Below the pieces are notes generated by a model, which saw only the letters and a list, made by a program, of their open reading frames with translations, was not told the DNA's origin and made no database searches. Shown piece by piece: positions 3,611 to 63,751 of a DNA stretch of 64,000 nt (position 1 is its first letter; every line of letters begins with the position of its first letter). Source of the DNA: Actinokineospora sp. NBRC 105648 (GTDB lineage Bacteria > Actinomycetota > Actinomycetes > Mycobacteriales > Pseudonocardiaceae); the NCBI RefSeq assembly GCF_030269645.1, contig NZ_BSTR01000043.1:1-64000 (forward strand), written 5' to 3'. Both the position numbers and the translations under genes were made by a program.

Positions 3611-4198
3611 GTGGGACATCGGGAACAACTCATCGTCGCGGCACGCAGACTGCTGGAGGACAAGGGCTACGCGCACATCACCGCGCGCGACCTCGTCGCC
3701 ACCTCGGGCACCAACCTGGCCTCCATCGGCTACCACTTCGGTTCCAAGGCAGGCCTGCTGAACGAGGCCCTCGGCGTCGTCTTCGAGGAATGGACCACCC
3801 AACTAGCCGAAGTGGCCATGGCCGACCCGAACGCCACCCCGATCGGCCGCGCACACCTGACCTGGGCCACCGTGCTGCGCAACCTGGAGGACAAGCGAGC
3901 CCTCCTGCTCAGCTTCGTGGAAGCACTGGCCCAGGCAGACCGCGACCCGGCACTGCGCGAACAACTGGCAGCGGTACAGCACCGAACCCGCACCCGCATC
4001 GCAGAGATGGTCGCGAGGTCCTACGGATCGGGGATTTCGGCGGAAGATCCCCGCTGCATGGCGGTGGCAGGTTTCGTGTTGGCAGTGTGCGACGGCCTGG
4101 CCATGCAATGGCTATTGGACCCGACACGCGCCCCAAAACCAGACGACTTACTGCACGGACTATCAGACCTGGTCAAATTGTCACAAGACAACAACTGA
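3611..4198 (+). CDS. TetR/AcrR-family transcription regulator
   Basis: 195-aa repressor-type regulator. Residues ~4-50 form the TetR helix-turn-helix (REQLIVAARRLLEDKGYAHITARDLV, then SGTNLASIGYHFGSKAGLL). The remainder is a helical ligand-binding domain. GTG at 3611 is preferred because translation from further upstream would run through the intergenic palindrome and add a non-homologous leader. A TACGAT -10 box 6 nt upstream suggests a leaderless transcript. It is divergent from the P450 at 2238-3536, the obvious candidate target. Its 3' end faces nadC across the repeat compound at 4364-4842. Confidence 0.92.
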   Translation: MGHREQLIVAARRLLEDKGYAHITARDLVATSGTNLASIGYHFGSKAGLLNEALGVVFEEWTTQLAEVAMADPNATPIGRAHLTWATVLRNLEDKRALLLSFVEALAQADRDPALREQLAAVQHRTRTRIAEMVARSYGSGISAEDPRCMAVAGFVLAVCDGLAMQWLLDPTRAPKPDDLLHGLSDLVKLSQDNN

Positions 4199-4410
4199 AC
4201 CGAACCCTCGATCAACCCGATATCCACAACACAATCCACCCAACCCCAACCCCAATCCCACCGCCAGCGCCACCAGAGTCTCCGCCCTACCCACCCCACA
4301 CAACCAAAGCAGAATCCGCTCCACCACCCCCGGTCGAATCCTGTCCCGCCCCACCCACCAAACCGCAGCGGATAGGCCGACCACGCTGGTACGCAAGTCC
4401 CGTTACGGAT

Positions 4411-4549
4411 GCTCGATCTAGTGGACTCGCTTCGCGTGGGGGGAGAGTGCCGCTAAACTTGCCGTGGGTGGGGATGCCCTTACCCTGCCCTTTTCTCTCC
4501 ACCGCGGTGCTCTAGGGGCCCCGCACGAAGCGAGTTCACTAGATCGAGC
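4411..4549 (+). repeat. Hairpin element copy A1a (139 nt)
   Basis: 31-nt outer arms (4411-4441 and 4519-4549) differ from perfect complementarity at three places, two of them G-U compatible. The inner stem is AGAGTGCCGC (4444-4453) against GCGGTGCTCT (4504-4513). The loop carries the conserved CTAAACTTGCCG and GGATGCCCTT blocks. The one-sided AGGGG bulge lies on the 3' side. Confidence 0.9.
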
Positions 4550-4649
4550 CCTGCTTGTAAATCGGGCAGCCCAAGCGATGAGCCGCCGAAGACGGTCGAC
4601 CGTAGGTCGGTGTGCGGCACACCCCACGAGCTGCCCAAGTAAGAGCGGG

Positions 4650-4789
4650 GCTCGATTGGCTGGACTGCCTTCGCGTGGGGCCCCTAGAGCACCGCGGTGG
4701 TGAAAAAAGGGCGGGTGAAGGGCATCCCCACCACACGGCAAGTTTAGCGGTGCTCTCCCCCCACACGAAGGCAGTCCACCCAATCGAGC
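4650..4789 (-). repeat. Hairpin element copy A1b (140 nt), inverted
   Basis: Same architecture as A1a but in the opposite orientation. Outer arms 4650-4680 and 4759-4789 have two mismatches. The inner stem AGAGCACCGC (4686-4695) and GCGGTGCTCT (4747-4756) is perfect, whereas A1a uses G-U pairs there. The bulge is read as CCCCT on the plus strand. Confidence 0.9.
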
Positions 4790-4870
4790 ACAAACGTAAC
4801 GGGTCTTACATACCAGCGAGCTCGGCATTTAGGAATTGAGAAGCAAGGGACAAAGATTGAGGGCCTGGCT

Positions 4871-5719
4871 CTAGCCCTGGCTTTGGAGGTCCATTCCTAG
4901 GTCCAGGGCCGGTGAGGAGTGGGTTAGGCCGCCTACCGCCAGGTAGTCGACCCCGGTCTCCGCGTATGCCCTGGCCACGTCCAACGTCAAACCGCCGGAG
5001 GCCTCCAGTCGTGTTCCCGTGCCCGCCGCCCGTCGGACCGCCTCCACACATCCGTCGACCGTGAAGTTGTCCAGCAGCACCAGTTCCGCTCGTTCAGCCA
5101 GTGCCTCGTCCAGCTGATCGAGACTGTCCACTTCCACCTCGCACGGCAGTTCAGGCGCGTGCGCCCGCGCTGCCGCCAGGGCCTTGGCGACCGAGCCTGC
5201 GGCGATCACATGGTTGTCCTTGATCAGGATTGCGTCGCCCAGGCCCATCCGGTGGTTCACACCTCCGCCGCAGCGGACCGCGTACTTCTCCAGTAGGCGC
5301 AGGCCGGGCAAGGTCTTGCGGGAATCCCTGACTGCGGCGCCGGTTCCGACGATGGCCGACACCCACGCCGCTGTCGCCGTGGCGACGCCGGAGAGGTGGC
5401 AGAGGAAGTTCAGTGCCGTTCGCTCGGCGGTCAGCAGGGCGCGGGTGTTGCCGCGCACCACCAACGCGGGTACGCCGGGGACCGCTGTCGATCCGTCCTC
5501 CACAGTGGACACAACGGTCAGGTCCGGGACGACTTCGGCGAAAACGGCCAAGGCCACTGGCAGGCCGGCCAGTACCCCCGCCTTGCGCGGCGTCAGTTCG
5601 GCCACGGCGGTCGCGTCGGCCGGGACCGTTGCCTCCGTTGTCGCGTCTGGGCCGTAGCGCAGGTCTTCGGCCAGTGCCGTGGCGATCACGCGGGACAGAT
5701 CTTGTTGGTCGATGGTCAT
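4871..5719 (-). CDS. nadC: Nicotinate-nucleotide pyrophosphorylase (quinolinate phosphoribosyltransferase)
   Basis: Third step of de novo NAD synthesis: quinolinate + PRPP to nicotinate mononucleotide, CO2 and PPi, in the cytosol. The 282-aa length is normal. The family core is clear: RDSRKTLPGLR, then EKYAVRCGGGVNHRMGLGD and ILIKDNH supply the basic residues that bind quinolinate and PRPP. EASGGL and VDYLAVGGLTHS follow near the C-terminus. ATG at 5719 overlaps the nadB stop as ATGA, which fixes the start. It is the last gene of the nadA-nadB-nadC operon. Its 3' end faces the repeat compound A1. Confidence 0.97.
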   Translation of the reverse strand: MTIDQQDLSRVIATALAEDLRYGPDATTEATVPADATAVAELTPRKAGVLAGLPVALAVFAEVVPDLTVVSTVEDGSTAVPGVPALVVRGNTRALLTAERTALNFLCHLSGVATATAAWVSAIVGTGAAVRDSRKTLPGLRLLEKYAVRCGGGVNHRMGLGDAILIKDNHVIAAGSVAKALAAARAHAPELPCEVEVDSLDQLDEALAERAELVLLDNFTVDGCVEAVRRAAGTGTRLEASGGLTLDVARAYAETGVDYLAVGGLTHSSPALDLGMDLQSQG

Positions 5720-9164: not shown

Positions 9165-9845
9165 GTGCCTGATTCGCTTCCGTTGTTCCCGCTGCGGGCG
9201 GTGCTGCTTCCCGGAGCGAACCTGCCGTTGCACATCTTCGAACCCCGCTACCGCCAGCTGACCGTCGACCTGGTCACCGGCGCCCTGCCCGACCGGCGCT
9301 TCGGCGTCATCGCGCTGCGCCCCTCGGTCGACCACGAGGTCACCGACATCGGGCAGCTGCGCGCGGTCGGTTGCTCGGCCGAACTGCGCCAGGCCAAGCG
9401 CCTGCCCGACGGCCGCTTCGACATCGTCACCACCGGCGAGCGCCGGTTCCGGCTGCTGGAGCTCGACGCCACCTCGGCGCCGTACCTGATGGGCACCGTG
9501 GAGTGGGTCCCGGACACCGAGCAGCCGACGCTGGCGGCCGACTCGGTGTCGCTGCTGGCCGAGTCGGCCCGGTCCGCGCACCGGCGCTACTGCACGGCGG
9601 CGTGGCAGCGGGAGGACTGGAGCGAGCCCGCCGCGGACATCGAGACCGTGCAGCTGGCGCACGCGCTGGCGGCGGATTGTCTGCTGAGCCTGGACGACCG
9701 GCAGCGACTGCTGGAGGAGACGCGGCCGCTGCACCGGCTGCGCCTGGTGGGCAAGCTGCTGAACCGGGAGGCGGGGATCATCTCGGCACTGCGGGCGGTA
9801 CCGGCGCCGCCGTCGGAGTTCAGCGCGCCGATCTGCCTGAACTGA
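9165..9845 (+). CDS. Stand-alone LON substrate-binding domain protein
   Basis: 226-aa protein consisting of the N-terminal substrate-recognition domain of Lon protease only; there is no AAA+ ATPase and no Ser-Lys protease part. The domain is recognised by PLFPLRAVLLPGANLPLHIFEPRYRQL at residues 6-32, FGVIAL, and TGERRFRLLELD near residue 95. Such short LON proteins are common in actinobacteria and their role is not established; a partner to a separate protease or chaperone is a possibility. The start is GTG with a leaderless promoter. It follows nrtR by 54 nt, but its own -10 box suggests a separate transcript. It ends before repeat element B. Confidence 0.88.
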   Translation: MPDSLPLFPLRAVLLPGANLPLHIFEPRYRQLTVDLVTGALPDRRFGVIALRPSVDHEVTDIGQLRAVGCSAELRQAKRLPDGRFDIVTTGERRFRLLELDATSAPYLMGTVEWVPDTEQPTLAADSVSLLAESARSAHRRYCTAAWQREDWSEPAADIETVQLAHALAADCLLSLDDRQRLLEETRPLHRLRLVGKLLNREAGIISALRAVPAPPSEFSAPICLN

Positions 9846-10010: not shown

Positions 10011-10150
10011 GCTCGATTGGGTGGACTGTCTTTGTGCGGGGCCCCTGGGCGACCGCCGGTGGGAGGGCGGGTGGGGAAGGGATCCACCCACGCGCCGGGC
10101 AGCTTAGGCGGTCGCCCTCCCCCACACAAAGACAGTCCACCCAATCGAGC
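10011..10150 (-). repeat. Hairpin element copy B (140 nt)
   Basis: This copy lies between the convergent LON gene and DUF2567. The outer arms 10011-10041 and 10120-10150 match at 30 of 31 positions. The inner stem GGGCGACCGC (10047-10056) and GCGGTCGCCC (10108-10117) is perfect and differs from element A by compensating changes (GCA/TGC replaced by CGA/TCG). The conserved loop block CTAAGCTGCC and the GGATCCCTT turn are on the minus strand. The rest of the 426-bp gap is the tandem array and featureless sequence. Confidence 0.9.
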
Positions 10151-10271: not shown

Positions 10272-10874
10272 CTAGCCGAGTCTGCGGCCCAGGTCGTCTC
10301 GGCCGTTCCAGGCCGCGGCTATGCCGTAGGCGAGGGTGGCGCCCAGGGGCCAGGCCAGGACGAACCAGGGTGACTCCAGCCTGGGGGCCAGGGTCAGCAC
10401 GTCGCCCACCGCCGGGGAGGCTGGGAGGGGGAACCTGCCCTGTGCCCAGGCGAGGCCGACGATGTTGGCCATCCAGGCCGCGGTGGCGGAGCCGCCGACG
10501 GTGGCTATCAGGAAGACCGGGCCCCGGCGTTCGCGCAGCAGCCAGGCCGCCGCGCCGGTGAGGACGCCCGCGGCGAGGGTGAGCAGGAGGAACAGGGCCA
10601 GGGCGTCGAAGCGGTGGTAGCTCTCGGTCCGCAGGGCGGCGGGTTTGCCGTCCTCGAGGACCTGGACCAGCACGCCGGGCGCGAGCCTGGACCACAGCCA
10701 GCCGACCGCGAGGCCGAACAGGGCGACCGTGGACAGCATGCTCACGGCGGGCAGCAGGTCGCGCTTGATGATCACGCGGGCCGGGCGGGGGCTCCAGTAG
10801 GTGTACTCCGGGGGTGGGGTCACCGTGCGTACCGAACCGTCGGCCTGGGGGGACCGGGTCGGGTCGTCCGTCAC
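10272..10874 (-). CDS. DUF2567 integral membrane protein
   Basis: 200-aa membrane protein with about four hydrophobic segments (LSTVALFGLAVGWLW, LALFLLLTLAAGVLTGAAAWLL, FLIATVGGSATAAWMANIVGLAW and a C-terminal SPWFVLAWPLGATLAYGIAAAW). The same order bioB, small zinc-ribbon gene, DUF2567 is found in Mycobacterium tuberculosis (Rv1589-Rv1591), which supports the call. The GTG start at 10874 has GGGAGG upstream; the frame stays open into bsaP but that is not coding. The function is unknown. The conserved linkage to biotin synthase suggests a role in biotin or lipid-linked metabolism, but this is only inference. Confidence 0.85.
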   Translation of the reverse strand: MTDDPTRSPQADGSVRTVTPPPEYTYWSPRPARVIIKRDLLPAVSMLSTVALFGLAVGWLWSRLAPGVLVQVLEDGKPAALRTESYHRFDALALFLLLTLAAGVLTGAAAWLLRERRGPVFLIATVGGSATAAWMANIVGLAWAQGRFPLPASPAVGDVLTLAPRLESPWFVLAWPLGATLAYGIAAAWNGRDDLGRRLG

Positions 10875-13303: not shown

Positions 13304-13430
13304 CGTTCCCCGCGAGCCTGCCCCCTCCCCTCGGGCTTCCCGGCCATCCATAGCGGAAAGGTCGCCCTCGCCCCCCCTAATACCGCAGCGGATAGGCCGA
13401 CCACGCTGGTACGCAAGTCCCGTTACGGAT

Positions 13431-13569
13431 GCTCGATCTAGTGGACTCGCTTCGTGTGGGGGGAGAGTGCCGCTAAACTTGCCGTGGGTGGAGATGCCCT
13501 TACCCTGCCCTTTTCTCTCCACCGCGGTGCTCTAGGGGCCCCGCACGAAGCGAGTTCACTAGATCGAGC
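13431..13569 (+). repeat. Hairpin element copy A2a (139 nt)
   Basis: Direct equivalent of A1a. One outer-arm base differs (TTCGTG instead of TTCGCG near 13455), which restores a base pair that is mismatched in A1a. The inner stem, CTAAACTTGCCG loop block and bulge are unchanged. Confidence 0.9.
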
Positions 13570-13668
13570 CCTGCTTGCAAATCGGGCAGCCCATGCGATG
13601 AGCCGCCAACAAGGTCGACCGTAGGTCGGCGTGCGGCACACCCCACGAGCTGCCCGAGTAAGAGCGGG

Positions 13669-13808
13669 GCTCGATTGGCCGGACTGCCTTCGCGTGGGGC
13701 CCCTAGAGCACCGCGGTGGCGAAAAAAGGGCGGGTGAAGGGCATCCCCACCACACGGCAAGTTTAGCGGTGCTCTCCCCCCACACGAAGGCAGTCCACCC
13801 AATCGAGC
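13669..13808 (-). repeat. Hairpin element copy A2b (140 nt), inverted
   Basis: Direct equivalent of A1b, with only single-base differences. The outer arms are 13669-13699 and 13778-13808. The inner stem AGAGCACCGC with GCGGTGCTCT is perfect. Confidence 0.9.
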
Positions 13809-13914
13809 ACAAACGTAACGGGTGTTGCGTACCAGCGGGCTCGGCATTTAGAGATTGAAAGAATAAAGACTCAGACCGAAGGACAGGGACAAGGGCGAGG
13901 GGCAGGGGCAGGGG

Positions 13915-24332: not shown

Positions 24333-25271
24333 GTGACGGATCCGGTTGATGCCCGCCTGCTCGGTGTGGTCGCCGAAATGGGCAGGGCAGCGGTGCACGA
24401 GGTCGCCGCGCGGCTGGGCATGGACCCCCGCGAGGTCGCCTCGCGCCTGGTCGCGCTCTCCGGCGCGGGCCTCCCGCTGCTCGTCGGCGTCGAGTGCGAC
24501 CCCCACGGCCTGCGCGCGGCCCTGGCCAGGATGACCGGCCCGGTCGGCTACTACGGCCAACCCGCCCCCGGCGGCTACCAGCAGCAGCCCCCGCCCCAGC
24601 CCCAACCGGTACCGCTGCCGTTCTCCCCGCCGCCGCCGATGTACCACCACAGCGGCCCCGTCCGCACCGGCCCGCCCAGCACCCCGTTCCCAGTGCCCAC
24701 CGGCCCCCCGAGCCAGCCCTTCCCGGTGGCCAGCGAGCCCATCAGCACCTGGGGCCCACCCCAAACCTCAACCTGGGCACGCGGCGACCAACCACCGTCG
24801 ACCGGCGGGTCGATGGACCGCACCCAGCCCGCCACCCGCGTCATGGCCTCCCGCCAGGGCAAGGTCGGCGCCACCCTGGAGACCTCCGGCCTGGAGGGCG
24901 AACGCCTCGCCATCCAGCTGGTGGAGGTCGTCGACCCCGCCGACTACCTCTTCACCGCCGCCGGCTACCGCCTACAACCGGGCGAACGCTCGATCGTCGT
25001 GCACACCGAGCTCACCAACCGGGGATCAGTGCCGTTCGCGACTCTGCCCGACCTGTACCTGGTCCTGGTCACCCCGGACAACCAGCCGATCTCCAAGGCA
25101 CCGGTCTCCCTGTCCTCCAGGCCCCCGCACCGCATCGGCGTGCAGCCCGGCGAGACGGCGGGCGGCCACACGGTCTACGTGGTCCCCGAGGACACCGTGA
25201 TCACCAAGGTCAGCTGGAGCCCCCGCCCCGACGAGGAATCCCTGACCCTCACCTGGACAGTCGACACCTGA
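24333..25271 (+). CDS. Pro/Gln-rich protein with N-terminal HTH-like and C-terminal beta-sandwich domain
   Basis: About 312 aa in three parts. Residues 1-75 resemble an AsnC-type winged helix (VDARLLGVVAEMGRAAVHEVAARLGMDPREVASRLVAL). Residues ~80-180 are a low-complexity Pro/Gln/Gly linker (QQQPPPQPQPVPLP). Residues ~185-312 form a beta-sandwich like DUF4352 (YLFTAAGYRLQPGERSIVVHTELTNRGSVPF...DLYLVLV). There is no signal peptide or membrane segment, which is odd for a DUF4352-like domain. GTG at 24333 is chosen because a TAGCGT box (24319-24324) lies 8 nt before it; a longer start at 24276 would begin before this promoter. The function is unknown. Confidence 0.8.
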   Translation: MTDPVDARLLGVVAEMGRAAVHEVAARLGMDPREVASRLVALSGAGLPLLVGVECDPHGLRAALARMTGPVGYYGQPAPGGYQQQPPPQPQPVPLPFSPPPPMYHHSGPVRTGPPSTPFPVPTGPPSQPFPVASEPISTWGPPQTSTWARGDQPPSTGGSMDRTQPATRVMASRQGKVGATLETSGLEGERLAIQLVEVVDPADYLFTAAGYRLQPGERSIVVHTELTNRGSVPFATLPDLYLVLVTPDNQPISKAPVSLSSRPPHRIGVQPGETAGGHTVYVVPEDTVITKVSWSPRPDEESLTLTWTVDT

Positions 25272-25480: not shown

Positions 25481-25622
25481 GCTGGATTGGGTGAAACTGC
25501 TTTGTTTGGGGAGAAAAGAGGCGCTAGCCTAGTTCGGCGGTGGGTATCCCTTTCCCACCCGCTCTACCCACCGCGCCTCTTTTCTTAGGGGCCCCAAACA
25601 AAGCAGTTTCACCCAATCCAGC
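25481..25622 (+). repeat. Hairpin element copy C (142 nt), perfect arms
   Basis: The outer arms 25481-25511 and 25592-25622 are perfectly complementary over all 31 nt. The inner stem AGAAAAGAGGCGC (25512-25524) and GCGCCTCTTTTCT (25573-25585) is perfect over 13. The one-sided TAGGGG bulge (25586-25591) and the loop block TATCCCTTT match the other copies. Arm sequences differ from elements A and B with compensating changes (CTGG/CCAG instead of CTCG/CGAG). It lies between the convergent genes ending at 25271 and 25662. Confidence 0.93.
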
Positions 25623-25661: not shown

Positions 25662-26591
25662 TCAGTAATCCGCCGCCAGCACGTCCAACGCCCCAGCCAA
25701 ATCAGCCGGGTACTCGCTGAAGAACTCCACCCACTGCCCATCAGCAGGGTGGTGGAACCCCAACGACCGGGCGTGCAGCCACTGCCGCGACAGCCCCAGC
25801 CGCTTGGCCAACGCCGGGTCCGACCCGTAGGTCAGGTCCCCCACGCACGGGTGCCGCAACGCCGAGAAGTGCACCCGGATCTGGTGCGTCCGCCCGGTCT
25901 CCAGCTTCACGTCCAACAACGACGCGGCCCGGAACGCCTCGATCGTCGAATAGTGCGTGATGCTGGGTTTCCCGCCCGCGACCACAGCCCACCGGTAATC
26001 GTGCCGGGGGTGCCGGTCGATGGGCGCGTCGATCGTCCCCTCACTGGGATCAGGATGCCCCTGCACCAGTGCGTGATAGCGCTTCTCCACGGTCCGTTCC
26101 TTGAACGCCCGCTTCAGCACCGTGTAAGCGTGCTCGCTCTTGGCCACCACCATCACCCCGGTGGTGCCCACGTCCAGCCGGTGCACGACCCCTTGCCGCT
26201 CAGCAGCGCCCGAGGTCGAGATCCGCAGCCCCGCGGCGGCCAGCCCGCCGATCACCGTCGGACCGCTCCAGCCCGGGCTCGGGTGCGCGGCGACCCCGAC
26301 CGGCTTGTCCACGACCACCACGTCGTCGTCCTGGAAGATGATCTCCAGGCCCTCCACCGCGACCGCCTTGAGCTCCACCGGCCGCTCCGGCTCGGGCAGC
26401 GTGACCTCCAGCCAGGAGCCCGCCAGCAGCCGGTCGGACTTGCCCGCGGGCCTGCCGTCGACCAGCACGCCGCCGGACTCGGTGATGGCGACGACGACCG
26501 TGCGAGACAGGCCGAGCAGCTTGGACAGGCCGGCGTCGACGCGCATGCCGTCGAGGCCGTCGGGTACGGGCAGTGTGCGGGACTCGCTCAC
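25662..26591 (-). CDS. rluD: RluA-family 23S rRNA pseudouridine synthase
   Basis: 309-aa enzyme that isomerises uridines in rRNA to pseudouridine. Residues ~10-70 form an S4 RNA-binding domain ([21 protein letters not shown]...[12 protein letters not shown]). The catalytic domain has the family motif with the essential Asp in [18 protein letters not shown] and later [19 protein letters not shown]. The GTG start at 26591 overlaps the lspA stop (GTGA), the common actinobacterial lspA-rluD pairing. Assignment to RluD rather than another RluA member is by gene order only. Its stop faces repeat element C. Confidence 0.93.
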
Positions 26592-28581: not shown

Positions 28582-28730
28582 GGCTGACCTCCAGGGTCCT
28601 GGGGACCCCGTGGGGCCCGCGCTTGCCCGTCCCGCACTGCGCGGGAGGACCAGGTCTTCACCCGGGGCACCCCACCGCGGAGGAGGGTTGCCGGCCAGCA
28701 AACCGGGGCTTGACGCTGGCACTCATGACC
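28582..28730 (-). promoter_or_regulatory. SAM-IV-type riboswitch leader
   Basis: On the minus strand the aptamer runs from 28730 to about 28650. It shows conserved blocks I associate with SAM-IV: GTCATGAGTGCCAGCGTC, CAAGCCCCGG, GCTGGCCGGCAACCCTCC and GGTGGGGTGCCCCGGGTGA. The 5' GGTC and 3' GACC close the outer stem. Downstream, AGGACC and the ribosome-binding AGGTC just before the GTG can pair with the aptamer 3' strand GACCTGGTCCT, leaving a 4-nt bulge. That suggests control of translation initiation. The gene class (PLP sulphur enzyme) agrees. Confidence 0.85.
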
Positions 28731-63597: not shown

Positions 63598-63751
63598 CAC
63601 CACCACCCCCTCTCGAACACCGCCCGGCTCGGGCCGGGTGCCGCCAGGTCCCCGCCCGCTCGTCGGACTTGGCACCGGGGAAGGTGTGCCAAGGCCGAAA
63701 GCGAGCGGACCGAGGCCTCACGGCACCCGCGTCCCTGCTGTTCCCCACTGC

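Follow-up and report, generated by a model that had tools for sequence, protein, structure and literature searches.

NEMIS, RPE, and bcr elements are large dispersed hairpin repeats, intergenic palindromes of about 100-170 nt. The published REP units associated with RAYT transposases are 20-40 bp sequences tagged with GTAG/CGTC (PMC3733652). For the single-strand (minus-strand) origins (sso) of rolling-circle elements, activity is reported to be orientation-specific and structure-dependent in ICEBs1 and pBAA1 (PMC4595007). A 2011 survey of AICEs (PMC3218068) makes no use of the term "sso".

Here, we analyze hairpin elements found in the window, a 64,000-nt stretch of the Actinokineospora sp. 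NBRC 105648 genome (contig NZ_BSTR01000043.1, positions 1 to 64,000), for which the first-pass annotation knew no described family. The hairpins constitute a real and apparently hitherto undescribed family of dispersed DNA repeats: no Rfam (release 15) family scores above its gathering threshold at the window elements, and no description of the family was found in the open-access literature searched. At E <= 1, a search of nine loci against Rfam gave mir-627 on one element (35.1 bits, threshold 86) and ar14 (24.6 bits, threshold 58.8), which we read as a generic likeness of long hairpins. The first-pass annotation, based on sequence alone, missed both the mobile-looking, REP-like nature of these repeats and the existence of an architectural relative on rolling-circle elements.

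Hairpin elements in the window

Six hairpin copies had been proposed in the window, and all of them are borne out in position and structure, including the 31-nt outer arms, the inner stem, and the one-sided (U)AGGGG bulge. From 5' to 3', the layout is P1 - P2 - unpaired motif - inner hairpin - P2' - one-sided bulge - P1', with the following features: (i) the outer stem P1 is about 20-31 bp or longer, usually with a GGGG/CCCC end, and P2 is about 10-13 bp, (ii) the unpaired motif is (C)UAARCUnGC-like and reads, e.g., CUAGCCU or CUAAACUUG in the window copies, (iii) the inner hairpin is often followed by a CUUUU-like stretch, and (iv) the bulge before P1' is (U)AGGGG-like, e.g., UUAGGGG or UAGGGG.

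The type A copy at 25481..25622 (+) defines the canonical orientation. It has a 31-bp outer stem, a 13-bp inner stem, a loop with CUAGCCU, and a UUAGGGG bulge, and it occupies the gap between the convergent called genes 24366-25271(+) and 25662-26546(-). This is the copy with 31 Watson-Crick pairs out of 31 in the outer stem. The first-pass annotation had ascribed complete pairing to the minor-type copy at 10011..10150 (-), the outer stem of which, read on the canonical strand, has Watson-Crick pairs at 30 positions and a wobble pair at the remaining one. The latter copy likewise separates two convergent genes, 9183-9845 (+), with a LON substrate-binding domain, and 10272-10874 (-), with DUF2567.

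The remaining four copies are of type B and form two close pairs, 4411/4650 and 13431/13669, each pair being an instance of the same larger unit of about 470 nt, in which both the spacer of about 100 nt and the outer flanks are conserved (flanks and spacers were compared across the pairs of the genome, leaving out 4 of 53 pairs without flanks). In the first pair, the left member (4411..4549, +) and the right member (4650..4789, -) stand tail to tail around the conserved spacer (4550..4649), which has a small inverted repeat of its own. The whole BIME-like unit of flank, element, spacer, element, and flank extends over approximately 4362..4831, with ends set by eye, in a convergent gap between a TetR-type gene, 3611-4198(+), and a quinolinate phosphoribosyltransferase-like gene, 4871-5719(-). 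The second unit, at approximately 13382..13850 as set by homology with the first one, comprises the left member 13431..13569 (+), located in a gap flanked by two minus-strand called genes, and the right member 13669..13808 (-). Type B units are followed on their right side (at 4832-4900 in the window, for example) by variable A/G-rich low-complexity stretches, GATTGAGAGATT-like, that stand in a window of 72% GC. Two known Rfam families are also present in the window, a SAM-IV riboswitch at 28614-28730 (-) and an mraW RNA at 63639-63725 (-).

Copy number and genomic context

A covariance model of 42 pairs (R1), built from 28 copies in canonical orientation, has at least 150 matches in the genome of the window, and 147 of those listed are matched end to end; a chance origin of the family is thereby excluded. 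The window copies at 4411 and 13431 are absent among the R1 matches listed, so the true copy number is higher than listed; a rough extrapolation gives about 225 copies. The copy set used below comprises 147 of the listed matches and these two window copies, 149 in total, 3 of 152 places outside the retrieved stretches being omitted. A local profile search of the retrieved stretches found 189 distinct places, 188 of them longer than 90 nt. The copies thus number 188 or more and occupy 135 sampled sites, of which 82 are single and 53 double. The members of a double site stand tail to tail in 47 of 53 cases.

None of the 135 sites overlaps a called gene. The sites are distributed among 69 convergent, 44 tandem, and 10 divergent gaps, and 12 are at contig edges, whereas the 245 element-free gaps of the same stretches include 22 convergent, 176 tandem, and 47 divergent ones. 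The convergent share is therefore 69 of 123 non-edge element sites against 22 of 245 element-free gaps, as judged from gene calls by our own codon-usage script and with background gaps taken from element-bearing stretches. Single copies in tandem gaps are on the gene strand in 47 cases and on the opposite strand in 20, and single copies in convergent gaps are nearer to the opposite-strand gene in 55 cases against 17.

On the canonical strand, the flanks of single copies in the genome of the window are A/C-rich and G/T-poor on both sides and in any gene arrangement, and flanks in the other copy sets lean the same way. The T fraction in the first 40 nt downstream ranges from 0.067 to 0.098 and equals 0.076 for the 82 single copies. 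Since the sequence directly 3' of the hairpin is T-poor, an intrinsic (U-tract) terminator was rejected. The base at position -1 is T in 95% of copies, the next positions not being conserved as a tetranucleotide, and no promoter was seen by eye in the conserved upstream flank. Flank composition and orientation fit a fold of single-stranded nucleic acid and do not choose between RNA and single-stranded DNA.

Covariation and strand asymmetry

The covariation of the arms suggested by the first-pass annotation is strongly supported. In an alignment of 31 sequences drawn from 15 congeneric genomes (A2), 98.6% of P1 cells are paired and two-sided changes occur in 24 of 31 pairs; shuffling gives means of 78.1% and 15.0 pairs, respectively, and none of 500 shuffles reaches either observed value. 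Two-sided changes are found in 26 of 31 pairs in a further alignment (A3), again with none of 500 shuffles attaining this. Across genera (32 sequences), pairing amounts to 96.1% in P1 and 72.0% in P2, where all nine modeled pairs show two-sided changes even though type B is shifted by one column.

The exceptions to Watson-Crick pairing are distributed unequally between the strands. Among 146 of the 149 copies (the other three were too short and were left out of the arm-pair counts), with 31 pairs each, the canonical strand has 142 G·U pairs, 4 A·C pairs, and 39 other mismatches, 31 of which are G·G at one position. Because the copies are related, such raw counts overstate significance, and the construction of R1 in canonical orientation could slightly favor G·U copies. 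Counted over distinct arm pairs, the bias is 67 G·U against 4 A·C for 76 arm pairs of the genome of the window and 17 against 1 for 22 arm pairs of 13 other species of the genus, while the four distinct arm pairs of genome G014 are all Watson-Crick. The counts are 17 against 3 in the Streptomyces-type set, which is partly out of register, and 4 against 6 in other genera, where the arms are not well in register.

A G·U pair in the fold of one strand corresponds to an A·C mismatch in the fold of the other one, so the constraint falls on one strand. The constrained object is thus one strand folded alone, as RNA or as single-stranded DNA. This upholds part of the initial proposal of a structured RNA or a cruciform under selection: a cruciform is strand-symmetric, whereas the observed mismatches are not, and it was rejected.

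Arm copying by template switching

Template switching, in which one arm is written from the other in a single event, is a published source of compensatory changes in hairpins (PMC8794818). Several features of the family bear its mark. As many as 5 arm types occur with an identical core, and a single arm type is combined with up to 21 cores. Arm pairs differing at one or two positions show 43 GC/CG or AT/TA flips, 92 other two-sided changes, and 173 one-sided changes. In one copy of the genome of the window (C9:134474-134623), the bulge sequence is also present in the 5' arm, yielding a symmetric hairpin. Given this mosaicism of arms and cores, the common GC-to-CG flips, and the copied bulge, arm-to-arm template switching plainly contributes to the complementarity of the arms, and for this reason covariation alone is no proof of selection on RNA here. 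Template switching cannot explain the strand bias or the persistence of the bulge.

These observations bear directly on the possibility that the repeats have no present function, being dead palindromes kept self-complementary only by template switching between the arms during replication. The two-sided flips, the arm/core mosaicism, and the copy with the duplicated bulge are what such a process would leave. Template switching is, however, strand-blind and should in general level G·U with A·C and remove the bulge, whereas nearly all copies read have kept the bulge and G·U outnumbers A·C by 142 to 4. This explanation is already disfavored, and we hold it to be very improbable.

Distribution among Pseudonocardiaceae

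The search of relatives with covariance models, proposed as a check in the first-pass annotation, yielded many intergenic copies. R1 has matches in 15 of 61 genomes, all 15 being among the 16 genomes of the genus of the window; the only exception in the genus is G012. Two copies from Actinokineospora inagensis, read among at least 40 stretches of a loose pattern scan, belong to the family. A genus-wide model (R2), applied with a cut of E <= 0.001 per genome, matches 40 of 249 Pseudonocardiaceae genomes in 11 of 46 genera, i.e., the genus of the window and 10 further ones, with about 0.25 false genomes expected among the 249 and with E-values that are rough. A closer search of nine genomes found 83 matches in G098, 25 in G181, 22 in G069, 20 in G022, 8 each in G093 and G187, 7 in G144, 2 in G214, and none in G012.

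The 28 matches read from seven other genera follow the same plan with variable P1 length and arm sequence, and most of them have a UAARCU-like motif near the P2 end and a GGGG-type bulge. Subfamilies are species-specific. In the other genomes of the genus, 56 loci include 28 convergent and 21 tandem gaps, no divergent gap, and 7 edge positions; the 28 loci of other genera are less convergent (7 convergent, 14 tandem, 2 divergent, and 5 edge). The family is thus a high-copy, non-coding, dispersed hairpin family of Pseudonocardiaceae.

A hairpin of the same architecture beside RepSA genes

A cross-genus model (R3), built from 32 sequences of the family and used with a cut of E <= 1e-4, matches 16 of 394 genomes of the class: 13 in another family-level group, f33, which is Streptomyces-like, two in the genus of the window, and one in group f27. 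The 13 f33 hairpins were read and possess P1, P2, a GUAAGCU motif, and the inner hairpin, most of them with a UUAGAGG- or UUCGAGG-like bulge; they score only modestly with R3, at 39-51 bits. When one f33 hairpin was used as a DNA query, 18 plasmid records were retrieved, 17 from Streptomyces and one labeled Kutzneria but titled Streptomyces. The matches are mostly partial, with 3 of 18 covering at least 80% of the query, and the same kind of search found no match in a phage collection. R3 confirms four of the five plasmid stretches tested, the exception being L343. Three of the four confirmed plasmids encode a RepSA initiator (Pfam), and the fourth is a 141-kb record of which the first 7.1 kb were examined. 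The partial matches in NZ_CP108877, NZ_CP108879, NZ_CP108875, NZ_CP109576, and NZ_CP109579 are located near record ends, at about 2 kb in four of these plasmid records and at 0.1 kb in the fifth (L343).

Comparison of 16 chromosomal regions, 15 from 10 f33 genomes and one from G355, revealed an R3 match in 15 regions and, as judged by similarity to the plasmid proteins, RepSA in 13, an FtsK-type transfer gene in 12, and a recognizable integrase in 7. This gene set suggests that the regions are AICEs. The canonical strand of the hairpin coincides with the RepSA coding strand in all 13 RepSA-containing regions and all three RepSA plasmids (16 of 16); the f33 hairpins resemble each other as members of one lineage, so the 13 regions do not amount to 13 independent events. 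Copy numbers by DNA search are 1, 1, and 3 in three f33 genomes, and two places were matched in one plasmid record. The architecture of the repeats therefore recurs at low copy number in a hairpin on Streptomyces plasmids and in chromosomal regions of the Streptomyces-like group beside pSAM2-type RepSA. A hairpin kept in a single orientation on a rolling-circle element has the appearance of an sso.

Evidence against the link comes from 20 RepSA regions from the order of the window (17 from its family): 19 have no convincing R3 match within about 9 kb of RepSA, and the twentieth (L392, from the genome of the window) contains two dispersed copies and a different hairpin. Searches for RepSA gave no hit in G005, G006, G013, and G015, four genomes of the genus that are rich in copies, so the repeats can persist without RepSA elements. 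No match above 14.3 bits was found in the sso-bearing plasmid pIJ101.

The different hairpin in L392 belongs to a second large hairpin family near RepSA genes of the family of the window, characterized by arms like CCATCCCGTCGACCT, small side hairpins, and a long inner stem. By motif it is found in 4 of 412 loci, corresponding to 3 distinct places: L392:5093-5223 (C49 of the genome of the window, the same place as L367:1088-1218), L399:18334-18469, and L382:1169-1299. Reading of folds adds similar structures at L401:2686-2860, L402:19314-19470, and L407:6949-7102. The second family could be the replication hairpin of those RepSA elements.

Mobility and search for a mobilizing enzyme

In a syntenic stretch of 400 kb, G014 and G006 have six and two copies, respectively, with one copy at an orthologous place. 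At least two G014 sites have no copy in G006, and these sites differ otherwise as well; three more G014 copies and one G006 copy are ambiguous, and no clean empty site was found in this stretch. Among 30 copies retrieved from G014, which are among its best-scoring ones, 10 are identical. The strand of the copies shows no clear replichore signal in G014 (plus strand in 13 of 35 copies of the first half and 28 of 60 of the second half, the origin position being assumed).

Searches for target-site duplications found 0 of 146 copies with a duplication of k = 2 (4.85 expected by shuffling) and none at k = 3-9, and no combination of end offsets of up to 3 bases with k = 4-6 exceeded 12 copies. Genes next to the copies were compared using 56 relative loci and 131 stretches of the genome of the window: grouping the 623 called proteins by similarity gave 21 groups of at most three members each. 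The Y1 transposase domain PF01797 has no match in the genome of the window and was found in G006 and G014 alone of the 16 genomes of the genus, once in each, so that it is lacking in 13 of the 15 element-bearing genomes. No mobilizer was found by the PF01797 and neighbor-gene searches. A candidate autonomous version at C46 was rejected, as it is a hairpin copy interrupted by an insertion sequence of the ISL3 family (L072:2971-4379 of the genome of the window, PF01610) that is flanked on both sides by the 8-base direct repeat TAAGAAAA.

Possible origin and role of the repeats

We tentatively favor, at somewhat less than an even chance, the interpretation that the repeats are REP-like and related to a single-strand origin, with an RNA function as the main rival. 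Common ancestry of the chromosomal repeats and the RepSA-linked hairpin is likely, and the repeats may derive from a signal that starts DNA copying. The RepSA-linked hairpin would then be a putative sso: rolling-circle replication would displace the plus strand, the hairpin would fold on it, and the unpaired motif together with the bulge would recruit a priming enzyme. The chromosomal repeats would be related to this signal and would have spread in a REP/REPIN-like manner, as non-autonomous passengers carried by single-stranded DNA. Their arms would stay complementary through template-switch copying combined with selection on the single strand whose folding is required, and copies would survive mostly at gene 3' ends because insertion elsewhere is presumably harmful. 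A bolder extension, that chromosomes of actinomycetes were colonized, in hundreds of copies, by mobile single-strand origins that escaped from rolling-circle conjugative elements, seems doubtful to us, and equally doubtful is its corollary that the only cargo of such a selfish element is a second-strand start signal.

The main rival places the function at the RNA level: the canonical strand would be transcribed at mRNA ends, and the element, having spread selfishly, would be kept where it stabilizes messages, either as a stable hairpin that blocks 3'-5' exonucleases after Rho-dependent termination or by otherwise setting transcript ends. The tolerance of G·U on one strand, the excess of convergent gaps, the preference of tandem single copies for the gene strand (47 to 20), and the A/C-rich, G/T-poor flanks of the canonical strand, which would be unstructured as RNA, all agree with this explanation. 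The T-poor downstream flanks, however, leave it without the U-tract of an intrinsic terminator, the proximity of convergent single copies to the opposite-strand gene (55 versus 17) is odd for a sense-strand 3' end, and the fixed strand beside RepSA is left unexplained; we regard it as rather unlikely. Two explanations based on transposases are much less probable. A Y1 (RAYT/IS200) transposase that used the single-stranded hairpins as substrates and mobilized them as REP/REPIN-type repeats would account for the high copy number, the intergenic and 3'-biased location, the tail-to-tail pairs, the strand-specific bulged hairpin, and the missing target duplication. The distribution of PF01797 largely refutes such an enzyme as the current mobilizer, and the size and arms are unlike those of the published tagged REPs (PMC3733652), making this scenario very unlikely. 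An ordinary MITE, in which the arms would serve as the terminal inverted repeats of a non-autonomous DDE transposon derivative, would explain the 31-nt inverted repeats, the high copy number, and the species-specific subfamilies. It is at odds with the lack of target-site duplications (0 of 146, k from 2 to 9), the conserved internal motif, the asymmetric bulge, the strand-asymmetric arm mismatches, and the absence of a recurrent neighbor gene, and we give it little credence.

With well over a hundred copies in one genome, extreme covariation, and model matches in 11 of 46 genera, the family provides a clear example from nature of how template switching can be distinguished from strand-specific selection. 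If the RepSA-linked relative is an sso, it would be a candidate second-strand origin for pSAM2-type conjugative elements and would outline a possible route from plasmid replication signals to chromosomal repeats. If the RNA-level explanation holds, the repeats would represent a widespread signal of message 3' ends in bacteria in which terminators with a U-tract are considered scarce.

Comparison with known systems

In size and intergenic palindromic nature, the family is similar to NEMIS, RPE, and bcr elements, as likened by their general description alone. It shares the presence of terminal inverted repeats, here the 31-nt arms, with MITEs and differs from them in having no target-site duplication. 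With REP, BIME, and REPIN sequences associated with RAYTs, it has in common the high copy number of intergenic palindromes near gene 3' ends, the frequent arrangement in inverted pairs (188 copies with 53 pairs), the bulged hairpin, and the species-specific subfamilies, and no target duplication is seen in the hairpin family. It differs from them in its length of 139-150 nt, in the nested stems with a conserved internal loop motif, in having no unpaired GTAG or CGTC tag at one end, and in the lack of a Y1 transposase in most hosts examined, including the genome of the window. Membership in the RAYT/REP group was rejected, since two of the three REP features examined are absent, although the behavior is REP-like.

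The family differs from the sso of rolling-circle plasmids and ICEBs1 in its well over a hundred chromosomal copies, and the sso role proposed here is putative; to our knowledge, no sso with that many chromosomal copies has been described. Among the 20 RepSA regions from the order of the window, convincing matches to the hairpin were confined to the two dispersed copies in L392. As in the sso, the hairpin is strand-specific and has unpaired motifs, and on the Streptomyces-type elements, which are related and hence not independent of each other, it keeps one fixed orientation relative to the Rep gene.
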